59,361 bases of DNA from positions 1 to 59,361 of the forward strand of contig JAVHLZ010000014.1 in the NCBI GenBank assembly GCA_031081675.1, written 5' to 3'. Under the pieces are notes generated by a model. That model saw only the letters and a program-made list of their open reading frames with translations. It did not search any database and was not told the origin of the DNA. Origin of the DNA: Armatimonadota bacterium. GTDB lineage: Bacteria; Sysuimicrobiota; Sysuimicrobiia; Sysuimicrobiales; Kaftiobacteriaceae. This document shows, piece after piece, positions 28,651 through 34,726 of this stretch (the stretch's first letter is position 1; every line of letters starts with the position of its first letter). Position numbers and translations under genes: made by a program.

Positions 28651-30570
28651 TCACTCCACCGTCACGCTCTTGGCGAGATTTCGCGGCTGGTCGATGTCGT
28701 TCCCCCGTTCCCGGGCCACGTAGTAGGCCAGCAGCTGCAGGGGGATGATGGCCAGCACCGGCGCCAGCTCGTCCCGGGTCGGCGGGATCCGCACCACGGT
28801 GTGGGCGTGCTTGTCGATCTCGCCGTCGTCATCGTAGGCCACCGCGATCACCTCGCCGCCCCGCGCCTTGACCTCCTCAATGTTGGACAGGGTCTTGTCG
28901 TACACGTGCCGCTGGGTCGCCAGGGCCACCACCGGCACGCCCGGCGCCACCAGGGCCAGGGTGCCATGCTTGAGCTCGCCGGCGGCCAGAGCCTCGGAGT
29001 GCACGTAGGAGATCTCCTTGAGCTTCAGCGAGCCCTCCAGGGCCACCGCGTAGTCCAGGCCCCGCCCGATGAAGAAGACGTGCTCTCGGTCCGCGATCCG
29101 GCGGGCCAGCGCCTCCACCTGCGGCGCCCGGTCCAGCACCTGCTGGGCCTGGGCGGGCAGCGCCTTCATGGCGGCCACCAGCGCCAGCGCCTCTTCCCGC
29201 GCCAGGACCCCGCGGCGCAGGGACAGGTCCAGCGCCAGCATCTGCAGAGCCACCAGCATGGAGACGTATGCCTTGCTGCTGGCCACGGCGATTTCCGGGC
29301 CGGCCCGGATGTACAGGACGTCGTCGGCCTCGCGGCTGAGGGTGCTGCCGACCACGTTGGTGACGGCCACCACCCGCGCGCCCCGCCGGCGCAGCTCCCG
29401 CACCGCCGCCAGGGTGTCGGCCGTCTCTCCCGACTGGCTGATGGCCACCGCCAGGCTGTGGGGACCGATGAGCGGATCGCGGTACCGCAGTTCGGAGGCC
29501 AGCTCCGGCTCGGCGGGGATCCGCGCCCAGTGCTCGATCAGCCACCGCCCCACCAGGCCGGCGTGGTAGGCCGTGCCGCACGCCGTGATCCAGACCGCGC
29601 GCAGGTCCCGGACGAAGGCGTCGGTGTACCCCACCCCGTCCAGCTCCACCACCCCGGGGACGTCCAGCCGGCCCATCATGGTCTCCTGCAGGGCCCGCGG
29701 CTGCTCGAAGATCTCCTTGAGCATGAAGTGGGGGTAGCCTCCCCGCTCGGCCATCTGCGCGTCCCAGGTGATGTGCACCGGCTGCCGCCGCACCGGGGTG
29801 CCGTCCAGGCGCTGGATGCGCACGCCGCCCGCCGTCAGCACGGCCAGCTCGCCGTCCTCGATCACCAGCACGTCCCGGGTGTAGGGCAGCAGCGCCGGGA
29901 TGTCCGACGCCAGGACGGTCTCGCCCTGGCCGATCCCCACGATCAGCGGGCTGATCTGCCGGACGGCCACAATCTGGTCGGGGGCGTCGGCGCTCATCAC
30001 CACGATGGCGTACGCTCCCCGGGTGCGCGCCACCGCCCGGCGGACGGCCTCGTCCAGGGGAAGGCGGAGGCGGCGGTCCACCACCGCCTGGCGGGTGCCC
30101 GGCGGCGCCGCGCCGCTTCCCGCCGGGTCGTCGCCCTCCCGCCCGGGCGGCCCCGCCAGTTCTTCCTCGATCAGGTGGGCCAGCACCTCGGTGTCGGTGT
30201 CCGACCGGAAGGTGTGGCCCCGCGCCTGCAGCTCCTCCCTGAGGGGGAGGAAGTTCTCAATGATCCCGTTGTGGATCACCACCACCCGCCCGCGACAGTC
30301 GGTGTGGGGATGCGCGTTGGCGTCGGTGGGCAGGCCGTGGGTGGCCCAGCGGGTGTGGCCGATACCCACCGTTCCCTCGGGGAGAGGAGGCTGCCGGGTG
30401 ATCTCCTCCAGGCGGCTGAGCTTGCCCGCCGTCTTGCGCACCTCGATGCGGCCGTCGGCCAGGACCGCCACGCCCGCCGAATCGTAGCCACGGTACTCCA
30501 GCCGTTTCAAACCGTCCAGCAGGACCGGCAGCGCGCTCTGCCGGCCGATGTATCCCATGATGCCGCACAT
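28651..30570 (-). CDS. glmS: glutamine-fructose-6-phosphate aminotransferase GlmS
   Basis: Makes glucosamine-6-phosphate, the first step to UDP-GlcNAc. The 639-aa protein has the N-terminal amidotransferase nucleophile C2 (MCGIMGYIG), [20 protein letters not shown] and HNGIIEN, then two SIS domains ([61 protein letters not shown]) and the [10 protein letters not shown]-terminus. An insertion of roughly 28 residues near position 145 ([15 protein letters not shown]) is absent from most GlmS. A GGAGGG site precedes ATG 30570. Upstream is a glmS ribozyme, so expression is expected to fall when GlcN6P is high. Confidence 0.96.
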
Positions 30571-30690
30571 GATGCCCTCCTGCGGACACTGTTCCCCGAA
30601 TGGACAGACCGGATGTCAGCTCCGGCCGCACAAGACCCGCGCGGCGCGCCGACGGCGCCGCGGGATCCATTCGTGTGTGCGACCTGGTCC

Positions 30691-30950
30691 TGGCAGCCTT
30701 CTGGGCCGGAGTTGCCTCCGGGGTTTGGCGGCTGCCTTGCCTCCGACGGGCGTCGGAGGGGTGCAGGCCGGGACCACCGGCCTAGGGTCACCCGCCGATG
30801 CGGTCACCGCCCGGATCATCACGCCGATGACCGGGCGGGCCGTCCGAGATCCCCTCCCTCGTCACCCCTGGCGTGGGACTGCGGACGGGGGCGTCTGGTC
30901 CACCGGTCCGCCCCGCACAACCCGCCTTCCGCGCCAGGGGCCTGGCGCTG
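30691..30950 (-). ncRNA. glmS ribozyme (GlcN6P-activated self-cleaving riboswitch), expanded form
   Basis: The glmS leader carries the conserved core in order. AGCGCC marks the cleavage site (cut expected between 30949 and 30948). P1 is the 9-bp pair CCCCUGGCG / CGCCAGGGG (3' strand at 30865-30873). It is followed directly by UGACGAGG (30857-30864). P2 is GAGGGG (30851-30856) with CCCCUC (30756-30761). Next come CAUCGGCGGGUG (30789-30800), a P3 hairpin (about 30741-30758), then GCAAGG, CAGCC, CAAACC, a CCGGAGGCAACUCCGG hairpin (P4) and AGAAGGCUGCC closing P3.1. Extra hairpins enlarge P1 and the segments on both sides of CAUCGGCGGGUG. No gene overlaps it; the rest of the 456-bp gap holds only the leader ends and the promoter. 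Confidence 0.85.
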
Positions 30951-31013
30951 CGGCACCTGACCTGCGGCTTGCTCTCACCTCCCCCGCCCGCACGGGTGCC
31001 GGCGGGCCCTCTC

Positions 31014-31042
31014 AGTAGACCACACTTTAGCATCCCTGTCCA
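31014..31042 (-). promoter_or_regulatory. putative sigma-70 promoter of the glmS transcript
   Basis: TGGACA (31037-31042) and TCTACT (31014-31019) on the minus strand are separated by exactly 17 bp. They lie just upstream of the glmS ribozyme, overlapping the end of the wecG-like gene. This would produce a leader of about 430 nt before glmS. Confidence 0.5.
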
Positions 31043-31833
31043 TTGAGGTCTTTTCCCCTCTCCCGGCGCAGCCGCGCCTTCAGCGCCAGCACCATCAGGT
31101 GCGGGAGCGCCGCCGCCGTCCGCCACCGGCGCCGGGGCTCCCGGGCGATCCGGTACGCCCACTCCAGCCCGGCCCGCTGCATCCACGCCGGCGCGCGGCG
31201 CACGCGTCCCGCCAGCACATCCAGCGTCCCCCCCACGCCCATGCTCACCGGCACGCCGAGCGCCGCCCGGTGCCGGGCGATCCACATCTCCTGGCGCGGA
31301 AACCCCAGGGCGACCAGCAGCACGTGCGGGCGGGCCGCCCGGATCTGGACCAGGACGGGAGCGTCGTCGGAGAAGTAGCCGTGGTGGACGCCGGCAACCT
31401 GCAGGCCCGGATAGCGGCGGCGCAGCGCCTCCGCGGCGTCGTCGGCGACCCCCGGCGCCGCCCCCAGCAGGAACACGCGCCAGCCGGCGGCGGCCGCCTC
31501 CGCGCACAGACGCTCGGCCAGCTCCACGCCCGGCACCCGCACGAAGGGGGGGCGGCCCAGAATCCGCGCCGCCACCAGCACGCCGACCCCGTCGGGCACC
31601 ACCAGCGACGCCTGCGACAGGATCGAGCGCACGGCCGGATCCCGAGCGGCGGCCACCAGCATCGCCCCGTTGACCGTCACCACCTGATGCGGGCCGCCGG
31701 AGGCGATCAGGGCGGCCACCCGCTCCACCGCCTGGTCCAGGGTGACGTGGTGGACCCGAACCCCCAGCAGTTCGGAGGCGGGCGGCTCGCGGTCGGCGGG
31801 AACGCGGCCGGGAGGATGCGCGGCCGATGCCAC
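31027..31833 (-). CDS. WecG/TagA/CpsF family glycosyltransferase (GT26)
   Basis: Peripheral membrane glycosyltransferase of 268 aa. It contains the family hallmarks VVTVNGAMLVAAARDP, VVPDGVGVLVAARILG, RVPGVELAERLC, FLLGAAPGVADDAAEALR, ALGFPRQEMWIA and GVGGTLDVLAGRVRRAPAWMQRAGLEWAYRI, including the conserved DG and the C-terminal Arg-rich membrane-contact tail. Members add N-acetylmannosamine or a related sugar to undecaprenyl-PP-GlcNAc in teichoic-acid or enterobacterial-type antigen synthesis. It lies 6 bp after glmM, tying it to UDP-GlcNAc supply. Confidence 0.88.
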   Translation of the reverse strand: MASAAHPPGRVPADREPPASELLGVRVHHVTLDQAVERVAALIASGGPHQVVTVNGAMLVAAARDPAVRSILSQASLVVPDGVGVLVAARILGRPPFVRVPGVELAERLCAEAAAAGWRVFLLGAAPGVADDAAEALRRRYPGLQVAGVHHGYFSDDAPVLVQIRAARPHVLLVALGFPRQEMWIARHRAALGVPVSMGVGGTLDVLAGRVRRAPAWMQRAGLEWAYRIAREPRRRWRTAAALPHLMVLALKARLRRERGKDLNGQGC

Positions 31834-31839
31834 CGGGCG

Positions 31840-33198
31840 CTAACCCCGTGGGGCCTCCAGGCGGCGGCCGCCCAGCTCGCGGGCCACCACGTCCGCCAGA
31901 TGGTCGGCCAGGGACGCGGCCTGGGCGGCGTCCTCCGCCTCCACCATGATCCGCACCAGGGGCTCGGTGCCCGAGGCGCGCACCAGCACGCGCCCCCGCT
32001 CGCCCAGCGCCCGCTGCGCATCGGCCACCGCGCGCGCGATGGCCGGGCGGGTGTCCAGAGCCGCGCGGTCGGCCACGGCCACGTTGACCAGGACCTGGGG
32101 CAGCCGCTCCACCACCGCGGCCAGTTCCGACAGACGTTTGCCGGTCTGCAGCATCACGTTCACCACCTGCACCGCCGTCAGGGCGCCGTCGCCGGTCGTG
32201 GCGTGGTCCAGGAAGATGATGTGCCCGCTCTGCTCGCCGCCCACCGTCGCCCCGACCTGGCGCATCCGCTCCAGCACGTAGCGGTCACCGACCCGGGTGC
32301 GCTCCAGGGTGATTCCCGCCCGGCGCAGGGCCCGTTCCAGACCCAGGTTGGACATCACGGTGGCCACCACCCGCGCGCCGGGCAGCCGTCCCCGGGCGTG
32401 CAGGTGGAGGGCGCAAATGGCCAGCAGGCCGTCCCCGTCCACCACGGCGCCGGTCTCGTCCACCGCGATGACCCGGTCGGCGTCCCCGTCGTGGGCGAAT
32501 CCCACGTCCGCCCGGCGGTCCCGCACCGCCTGGGCCACCACATCGGGGTGGGTGGAGCCGCAGCGGACATTGATCCGCGCGCCGTCGGGCGTGTCGTTGA
32601 TGGGAATCACCGTGGCGCCCAGCGCCTCCCACAGGGCAGGGACGGTGCGGCAGGCCGCGCCGTGAGCGCAGTCCACCACCACCCGCAGCCCGGCCGCCGG
32701 GGCGACGGCCAGGGCCGCCAGGTGGTCCACGTAGAGGTCGGCGGCTTCGGGGATGTCCTCGGCGCGCCCGACCTGCAGGCCCACGGCCCGCCGCAGGTCC
32801 GGCGAGTCCAGCAGGGCCTCGATGGCGTCCTCGACGGCGTCGGGCAGCTTGAAGCCGTCGCGGCCGAAGAACTTGATGCCGTTGTCCTCCACCGGGTTGT
32901 GGGAGGCCGAAATGACCACCCCGGCGGTCGCCCCCAGCCGCCGGGTGAGGTACGCCACGGCGGGCGTGGGCAGGATCCCGCCCCGCAGGGCCTGGCCGCC
33001 GGCCGAGCAGATGGCGGCCACCAGCGCCGCCTCCAGCATCGGCCCGCTGAGGCGGGTGTCGCGGCCCACCAGGAACTGCCCGCCGCCGGCGGGACTCAGC
33101 AGGTGGGCCGCCGCCCGCCCCAGGCGCAGGGCCAGCTCGGGCGTCAGGTCCACGTTGGCGACGCCGCGCACGCCGTCGGTTCCGAACAGACGGCCCAC
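31840..33198 (-). CDS. glmM: phosphoglucosamine mutase GlmM
   Basis: Converts GlcN-6-P to GlcN-1-P. The 452-aa product begins GRLFGTDGVRG, the canonical GlmM opening. It has the phosphoserine loop ISASHNPVEDNGIKFFG, the Mg loop HDGDADRVI, the sugar-binding GEQSGHIIF and the phosphate-binding RASGTEPLVRIM. The start is GTG at 33198, which has GAGGGG a few bases upstream; earlier in-frame starts lack a site. It follows cdaR by 59 bp; the cdaA-cdaR-glmM order is the classical c-di-AMP block of Firmicutes. Confidence 0.95.
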   Translation of the reverse strand: MGRLFGTDGVRGVANVDLTPELALRLGRAAAHLLSPAGGGQFLVGRDTRLSGPMLEAALVAAICSAGGQALRGGILPTPAVAYLTRRLGATAGVVISASHNPVEDNGIKFFGRDGFKLPDAVEDAIEALLDSPDLRRAVGLQVGRAEDIPEAADLYVDHLAALAVAPAAGLRVVVDCAHGAACRTVPALWEALGATVIPINDTPDGARINVRCGSTHPDVVAQAVRDRRADVGFAHDGDADRVIAVDETGAVVDGDGLLAICALHLHARGRLPGARVVATVMSNLGLERALRRAGITLERTRVGDRYVLERMRQVGATVGGEQSGHIIFLDHATTGDGALTAVQVVNVMLQTGKRLSELAAVVERLPQVLVNVAVADRAALDTRPAIARAVADAQRALGERGRVLVRASGTEPLVRIMVEAEDAAQAASLADHLADVVARELGGRRLEAPRG

Positions 33199-33257
33199 CG
33201 CGCCCCTCACCGGTCGGGCGCCTGCAGCCCGCCCGCGCACATGCTCCCGTGCACCTG

Positions 33258-33917
33258 CTATCCTCCCCGGCGGACGACCACCACCACCATGTCCGGCCGC
33301 AGGTCGACCACCGTCACCTGCTCGGGCGCCACCACCTGGGGCCGCACCCGCCGGCGCCCCTCGGACAGGTCGGCCCCGTCCACCACCGCCACCAGGTCGT
33401 CGGGCCGGAGCCGGCTGACCACCGCCACCGGCCCCTGCACCTGCACCGCGATGGTGGACGGCTCCACGCGCGCCACCACCCCCGGCGGGACGTTCTGCAC
33501 CCGGACCCGCACGCCGGGGACGACCCGGGCCGCGATGGCCGGCACCACCTGCACCGCCACCCGCACGCGGGCCGGGCGGGCCATTCCCGACGGCGCGTCC
33601 ACCGCCACCTCCCGCACCACATCCCGGGTGGCCCCGGTCACGTCCACGGCCTCGGTGCGCACGGCGTCCAGGGCGGCCAGCTGCTCGGCCACGCCGGTCA
33701 CGACGACCGTGGGCGGGGTGACCCGGACGCCCAGCATGCTGTACCCGTAGGCCGGCTCGCCCTCGATCCGGGGGATCACGGCCACCACCTTGGAGGTGAC
33801 CTGCGGGCCGCGGGGCGGGCGGGTGGACACCACATAATACCAGGAGGTCACCGCGATGAGAAACGACAGGAGCAGGAGCAACTGCTGCTCGCTGAGCAGA
33901 GGGCGGCGCAGTTTCAT
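33258..33917 (-). CDS. cdaR: CdaA regulator CdaR (YbbR domains)
   Basis: Membrane-anchored extracytoplasmic protein of 219 aa. One N-terminal helix (LLLLLSFLIAVTSWYYVVS, about residues 14-32) precedes YbbR-type repeats (VRVTPPTVVVTGVAEQL, VQVVPAIAARVVPGVRV, VRVQNVPPGVVARVEPSTI). YbbR proteins modulate the diadenylate cyclase CdaA. It has about two YbbR repeats where others carry four, so it is short. Its ATG overlaps the cdaA stop (ATGA), the normal coupling in this pair. Confidence 0.88.
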   Translation of the reverse strand: MKLRRPLLSEQQLLLLLSFLIAVTSWYYVVSTRPPRGPQVTSKVVAVIPRIEGEPAYGYSMLGVRVTPPTVVVTGVAEQLAALDAVRTEAVDVTGATRDVVREVAVDAPSGMARPARVRVAVQVVPAIAARVVPGVRVRVQNVPPGVVARVEPSTIAVQVQGPVAVVSRLRPDDLVAVVDGADLSEGRRRVRPQVVAPEQVTVVDLRPDMVVVVVRRGG

Positions 33918-34726
33918 GAGCGGCGGATCGTCCTCCACCACCGCCACGGGCCCACGGCGGCCGCCGGGCCGGGCGCCGTCAGTTCCAGCAGGGCGGCCTT
34001 CACCTGTTCCTCCGACAGTCCCCGGATCAGCTCGCCCTCCCGGGCCAGGCTGATCGTCCCGGTCTCCTCGGACACGATCAGGCTCACCGCGTCGGTCTGC
34101 TCGGTGATCCCGACCCCCGCCCGGTGGCGCGTGCCCAGGAGGCGGGCCAGGGACGGGTTCTCCGACAGGGGCAGCAGGCAGCCGGCGGCCACCACCCGGT
34201 TGCCGCGGATGATGGCCGCCCCGTCGTGCAGCGGGGAATTGGGGAAGAACAGGGTGATGAGCAGCTGCACGGTGACCACCGCATCCACCCGCACGCCGGT
34301 CTCGATGAAGTCCTCCAGCCCCGTCTGCCGCTCCAGGACGATCAGCGCGCCGATCTTGCGCAGCCCCAGGATGCGCGCGGCCCGGGCCAGGTCGTTGGCC
34401 AGCCGGATGCGCTCCTCCCGCCCCAGGGCGTGGGGTGTGAGCCCGCTGATGAGCACGCCGCCGCGTCCGAGCTGCTCCAGCATGCGCCGCAGCTCGGGCT
34501 GGAAGATGACCAGCAGGGCGATGGGGATCACCACGCCCAGGTACTGGAGGACCGACTGGAGCGTGTACAGGCCCAGGGCCCGGCTGACGGCGTAGGCCGC
34601 CACCAGAATTCCCAGCCCGATGACCAGCTGCACCGCCCGGGTGCCCCGGATCAGCAGCAGCAGCTGGTAGACCAGCAGGGTGACGATGAGGATGTCGATG
34701 ATGTCCTGCGGGCGGATCTCCGGCAC
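33914..34726 (-). CDS. cdaA: diadenylate cyclase CdaA (DacA)
   Basis: Membrane-bound enzyme of 270 aa that condenses two ATP into c-di-AMP. Three N-terminal transmembrane segments lie within residues 10-80. The DisA_N catalytic domain shows the DGA motif (SPLHDGAAIIRGNRVVAAG) and the RHR motif (LGTRHRAGVGITEQTDA), both intact. GTG start with GGAGG upstream. It is 11 bp downstream of argF. c-di-AMP usually controls potassium, osmolyte and cell-wall homeostasis. Confidence 0.95.
   Translation of the reverse strand: MPEIRPQDIIDILIVTLLVYQLLLLIRGTRAVQLVIGLGILVAAYAVSRALGLYTLQSVLQYLGVVIPIALLVIFQPELRRMLEQLGRGGVLISGLTPHALGREERIRLANDLARAARILGLRKIGALIVLERQTGLEDFIETGVRVDAVVTVQLLITLFFPNSPLHDGAAIIRGNRVVAAGCLLPLSENPSLARLLGTRHRAGVGITEQTDAVSLIVSEETGTISLAREGELIRGLSEEQVKAALLELTAPGPAAAVGPWRWWRTIRRS

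Follow-up and report, generated by a model that had tools for sequence, protein, structure and literature searches.

Does the leader of glmS in the window (the whole 59,361-nt stretch of DNA that was analysed) contain an intact glmS ribozyme, and if so, how would its cleavage silence the gene in this host? The host lineage is Candidatus Sysuimicrobiota (CSP1-3/ANGP1). The 43 genomes of the window's order were divided into seven families, from f1, the window's own, to f7. The relatives include the MAGs Terrabacteria group bacterium ANGP1 and Armatimonadetes bacterium CSP1-3, and NCBI places ANGP1 in Candidatus Sysuimicrobiota.

Organization of the locus, which is read throughout from the minus strand, resembles the Bacillus cdaA-glmM-glmS cluster with one inserted gene. 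The regulated gene glmS (28651-30570; NF001484 810 bits, TIGR01135 793 bits) has its start codon at 30570. The upstream operon (31027-34726) is defined by NCBIfam matches to cdaA (33914-34726), glmM (31840-33240) and a tagA/wecG-type glycosyltransferase gene (31027-31833). An open reading frame at 33258-33947, which occupies the YbbR/CdaR position, gave no NCBIfam match. The full order is cdaA, the YbbR-position frame, glmM, tagA/wecG, ribozyme, glmS and acpS. A promoter and terminator scan found none.

The candidate element extends over 264 nt, from A-1 at 30949 to the end of P3.1 at 30686, and its 3' end lies 115 nt upstream of the glmS start codon. The sequence-only reading, which had described a glmS ribozyme of about 260 nt immediately before glmS, was right on both length and position. 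It had also looked to RF00234 for a score above threshold, and this expectation failed: at the gathering score (37 bits) no match was obtained in the window, nor in a genome-wide search of the host genome, and the model, when forced on the window, gave 15.1 bits over P3-P4 only. This cut-off is an operational and not a biological definition. It is passed by 27 genomes of the same order, whose copies share the window's architecture, with scores of up to 89 bits, and one relative was aligned end to end with RF00234 at 89 bits. The miss is therefore attributed to the sensitivity of the model and not to absence of the ribozyme.

A leave-out covariance model gives a more direct measure. The f1 and f5 copies were aligned by conserved anchors, with the P1 loop and the P2.1-P2.2 insertion trimmed, and the model was built from ten relatives with the window excluded, seven of them from genomes above the RF00234 cut-off. 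It scores the window at 90.1 bits (E 3e-21), while the runner-up in the 59 kb reaches 8 bits. In the relatives, the same element is found directly before glmS in most cases, and with one gene between in f3. The hand-drawn structure with all pseudoknots, window included, pairs 93.6% of cells and contains 21 pairs changed on both sides. It beats every slid register and all shuffles (0/500) on every measure, the shuffles preserving column make-up and not relatedness.

The canonical core is a double pseudoknot of P2, P2.1 and P2.2 stacked between P1 and P3, with a P3/P3.1 pseudoknot and an L4 tetraloop that docks on P1 (PMC11602151). The structural and positional features of the class were found in the window: the cleavage site and core, the double pseudoknot, P3/P3.1, P4/P4.1 with its GNRA loop, and the location in the glmS 5' UTR. 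Motifs named in the sequence-only reading occur on the minus strand in the order that it gave. The predicted cleavage site (CA/GCGCC) lies between A-1 (30949) and G1 (30948); its AGCGCC is invariant in all aligned relatives, and the Rfam consensus is aAGCGCCuG. P1, which had been read as a 9-bp helix, is present and has 10 bp, nine of them Watson-Crick and one G-U, formed by GCCCCUGGCG (30941-30932) and CGCCAGGGGU (30873-30864). Both sides are changed in six of its eight counted pairs, and 97.7% of cells are paired across 11 sequences. The invariant core UGACGAGG (30864-30857) plus UCGGCGG is present, and CAUCGGCGGGUG occupies 30800-30789.

The remaining helices follow the same plan. In P2.1, CGAG (30861-30858) pairs with CUCG (30848-30845), invariant in f1/f5 and in other relatives except f4, whose hairpin sits within the loop. 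P2 joins AGGG (30855-30852) to CCCU (30787-30784) and shows a compensatory change, the A-U pair of f1, f5 and f7 being G-C in f3 (GGGG/CCCC). P2.2 (CGCC 30947-30944 with GGCG 30796-30793) is invariant in f1/f5. P3 (AGGCC 30783-30779 with GGCCU 30769-30765) is paired in 100% of cells, and the P3.1 pseudoknot (GGUCC 30775-30771 with GGACC 30690-30686) in 78%, despite ragged alignment tails. P3.1 covaries, with GUUCC/GGAAC in L006, L011 and L030 and GCCC/GGGC in L092. Covariation supports both P4 (30736-30730 with 30698-30692), within which CAAACC sits, and P4.1 (30721-30716 with 30711-30706), which is closed by the GNRA loop GCAA; the P4.1 loops inspected in five families are all GNRA. A separate observation concerns GCGCCAGGCCCCUGGCGC (30948-30931, minus strand), which can form a 7-bp hairpin that buries the cleavage site and could be a folding trap. 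As a competing fold, this hairpin (GCGCCAG/CUGGCGC) was rejected, at -12.6 kcal/mol vs -48.3 kcal/mol for P1.

The additional hairpins that the sequence-only reading had pointed out, in an expanded P1 loop and beside CAUCGGCGGGUG, are borne out. The P1 loop is structured and 58 nt long, and a 46-nt hairpin insertion (30799-30844) fills the P2.1-P2.2 loop. This loop measures 4-7 nt elsewhere in f1/f5; in the core construct of PMC7125110 it consists of four residues, 47-50. A further hairpin (30759-30740) is located between P0/P3 and P4, with both-side changes in four of its six main pairs. The Rfam alignment takes this last hairpin as P3. That assignment was rejected because the hairpin is additional and is absent in f7; the true P3/P3.1 adjoins it on the 5' side.

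Could these insertions, together with the low Rfam score, be signs of decay, leaving a degenerate and inactive remnant? RF00234 gives the window a mere 15 bits, and the insertion near the active site is missing in the nearest relatives, as such a reading would have it. All core positions that are invariant in relatives are nevertheless intact in the window; P1, P3.1, P4, P4.1 and P0 still pair, and P1 is more stable than the local misfold. Copies from f7, f3 and Actinomycetota, to which Rfam gives 37-89 bits, have hairpins of comparable size at this position. The decaying-copy reading was rejected on account of the intact core and is considered very improbable. From sequence comparison, we conclude with a probability of about 0.93 that the element at 30949-30686 is a glmS ribozyme, a GlcN6P-dependent self-cleaving riboswitch. 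The case shows that RF00234 overlooks true members that carry insertions.

Much of the novelty first seen in this element is ordinary. The length of the P1 loop varies freely. P2.1-P2.2 loop hairpins are found at the same site in the sister families f7 and f3 (20-55 nt) and in most of the Actinomycetota set (21-59 nt). An outer membrane in the host, as the sequence-only reading had it, is borne out by the Omp85 protein encoded in the genome. The same reading identified the ribozyme correctly and overstated how far it extends the range: RF00234 is above its cut-off in Deinobacterium and in most glmS-bearing relatives of the window's phylum, and Actinomycetota and Chloroflexota MAGs carry a glmS ribozyme before glmS. 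Such ribozymes were already known outside Firmicutes. From Deinococcus-Thermus, McCown, Roth and Breaker reportedly described in 2011 glmS variants whose core has additional stems; compared by description only, these variants share with the window the extra core stems and an outer-membrane host. What had gone unnoticed is more unusual, namely the helix P0, a conserved Shine-Dalgarno (SD)-like leader element and a missing RNase J, the last being the most interesting point.

P0 joins the leader, 5' of the cleavage site, to the linker between P3 and P4. The leader GGUGC (30957-30953) pairs with GCACC (30764-30760). In f1/f5, leaders end in (G)GUGC-NNN-A-1, and GCAC(C) stands directly 3' of P3. 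The four inner pairs of seven are invariant in these families. The outer ones co-vary: pair 5 is G-C or C-G, pair 6 is C-G, U-A, G-C or U-G, and pair 7 is U-G, U-A or G-C. The helix pairs 90.5% of cells, against 19-46% in slid registers, with three pairs changed on both sides. Its covariation score was reached by none of the 500 shuffles; the two-sided pair count alone was matched in 93 of the 500 and is not unusual. RNAalifold places P0 unprompted. The single-sequence duplex energies of these GC-rich RNAs do not exceed those of shuffled leaders, a test regarded as uninformative since the GC content is too high. The window itself forms five of the pairs.

P0 might also be no real helix, GUGC and GCAC being conserved for other reasons and the flanking matches arising by coincidence among few related sequences. 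Invariance of the inner pairs among only 11 related f1/f5 sequences would fit this, as would the 4-bp pairing of L004 and L005 and the absence of P0 in f7. The inverted pair 5 of one f5 clade (C-G for G-C in L014 and L018), the four forms of pair 6, the loss of pairing in slid registers and the choice made by RNAalifold argue against it. In f3, moreover, a different sequence pair is found at the same place: the leader UGGGU is complementary to an ACCCA within the P3-P4 hairpin loop, and in L087 both sides are changed, to UGGCG/CGCCA. A chance match is thus unlikely, and P0 is probably a lineage helix, which looks new. To our knowledge, the canonical glmS ribozyme has no substrate-side helix of this kind. 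If true, P0 would be a new architectural element, which would anchor the substrate strand. The 5' flank appears to be structured differently in three Chloroflexota MAGs (L054, L067, L085), where a small, apparently covarying leader hairpin (CCUGU/ACAGG, CCGGU/GCCGG) adjoins the cleavage site.

The leader carries a second conserved feature. An SD-like GGAGGTG is found at 30976-30982 on the minus strand, 33 nt 5' of A-1. All 30 of the 30 ribozyme leaders compared, from five families, have the pattern GG[AG]GG[TG]G at 27-40 nt 5' of the cleavage site (1.83 expected), and a purine-rich run, often GGAGGTGAGAGGGG, continues it. The conservation of this element across the lineage, as judged from these leaders, looks new. 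As the motif is a perfect SD, it might serve to start translation of a short open reading frame in the leader. This is improbable: an ATG, GTG or TTG follows at a usable spacing of 4-12 nt in only one of the 30 leaders, and there is no common frame. Pairing of the SD-like element with downstream RNA, suggested on visual inspection by C-rich loops in f3 and f7 such as UCCCACCU, was also considered and rejected (mean z -0.4 to +0.9). Long-window swap tests for pairing between the leader and downstream RNA gave no convincing signal, with a best p of 0.05 (f1).

The simplest reading of the SD-like element, although a doubtful one, is that it would bind 30S subunits in the manner of a STAB-SD and be cut off by the ribozyme. 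STAB-SD is known from Bacillus (Agaisse and Lereclus 1996, as cited in PMC3997798). In both cases an SD sequence stands in the 5' UTR with no start codon behind it. The window differs from Bacillus in that the element belongs to the piece that ribozyme cleavage would release, and its stabilising role here is putative.

A different arrangement was observed in the Actinomycetota order of genome G061 (L098-L111). There, a CCUCUC that directly follows P3.1 has two possible pairing partners, a leader GAGAGG at about -25 and the Shine-Dalgarno of glmS (SD:post -11.9). The leader:post duplexes average -14.3, compared to -8.1 for shuffles (sd 0.6), and own and swapped pairs differ at p = 0.003. This suggests cleavage-coupled SD sequestration in that order, in which the uncut leader would mask the anti-SD and the cut would free it. 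The window's lineage showed no pairing of this type.

In B. subtilis, RNase J1 degrades the mRNA with a 5'-OH and in this way turns GlcN6P-induced cleavage into repression (PMC3997798, PMC7125110). Canonical RNase J, scored by the TIGR00649 cut-off, was found in f2, f3 and f7 and in 22 of 23 other ribozyme-bearing genomes (Actinomycetota, Chloroflexota, Bacillota). No genome of f1, f4, f5 or f6 has a match above this cut-off; in f1 the count is 0 of 10, the host's own genome included. Judged by this profile, the missing canonical RNase J in ribozyme-bearing f1, f4 and f5 looks new. In a host without canonical RNase J, cleaved glmS mRNA would have to be silenced otherwise.

The host genome does encode RNase E/G and RNase Y. 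Its best RNase J-like match is a distant beta-CASP protein, at 43 bits vs a cut-off of 400. This protein has 516 aa, belongs to the metallo-beta-lactamase/beta-CASP proteins and is a remote relative of RNase J and of EF2904 (PDB 2az4); its gene lies on contig C13 of the host genome (L114, 1338-2888, minus strand). In L115, a beta-CASP gene of the 516-aa type adjoins a gene that is RecB/Cas4-like by eye. Silencing could still follow the classical route if such a divergent enzyme had replaced RNase J and degraded the 5'-OH product. The presence of this RNase J-related protein in the host and in f1/f5 relatives would allow it. The scores of 43-51 bits are nevertheless far from the cut-off of 400, and the best solved relative is EF2904, a protein with no established function. 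Furthermore, since related proteins occur in f3 beside true RNase J, the beta-CASP protein is unlike a replacement, and we regard this route as rather unlikely.

With GlcN6P plentiful, the metabolite would act as cofactor and the RNA would be cut between A-1 and G1. P0 would keep the 5' flank beside the scissile bond and may aid positioning or folding. The cut would free the leader with its SD-like element, a putative 30S-binding stabiliser or loading site, and would leave an mRNA with a 5'-OH. This cleaved mRNA might be silenced by RNase E/G, by RNase Y, by the distant beta-CASP protein or through lost ribosome protection. A leader-tethered class of glmS ribozymes that represses without RNase J can tentatively be imagined: P0 would dock the leader on the catalytic core, and repression would come from removal of the SD-like stabiliser by cleavage and not from entry of RNase J. 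We hold this proposal, too, to be rather unlikely.

Compared to the glmS ribozymes of B. subtilis, B. anthracis and Thermoanaerobacter tengcongensis (RF00234), the window shares the core of P1, P2, P2.1 and P2.2, the cleavage dinucleotide, P3/P3.1 and P4/P4.1 with a GNRA loop (PMC11602151, PMC7125110), and the position before glmS and after the cdaA-glmM cluster. It differs in having P0, the 46-nt P2.1-P2.2 hairpin, the P3-P4 hairpin and the SD-like leader, and in lacking canonical RNase J. The f7 and f3 ribozymes have the core, the SD-like leader and the P2.1-P2.2 loop hairpin in common with the window. Those of f7 differ from it by having neither P0 nor the P3-P4 hairpin, and those of f3 by having P0 in the form of a leader-to-loop contact and by standing before a two-gene operon; RNase J is present in both families. 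In f3 (L043, L045, L048, L049, L086, L087, L088), the ribozyme is followed by a gene that by eye is fructose-1,6-bisphosphate aldolase/phosphatase-like, and then by glmS. As the ribozyme precedes both genes, a single ribozyme may serve substrate supply as well as glmS. In genus g9 of f5 (L007, L008, L017, L019), glmS stands directly after tagA/wecG and the ribozyme is gone; an RF00234 search of these four genomes gave no match.

A family that keeps the ribozyme without canonical RNase J is a natural test of the role of self-cleavage in gene control.
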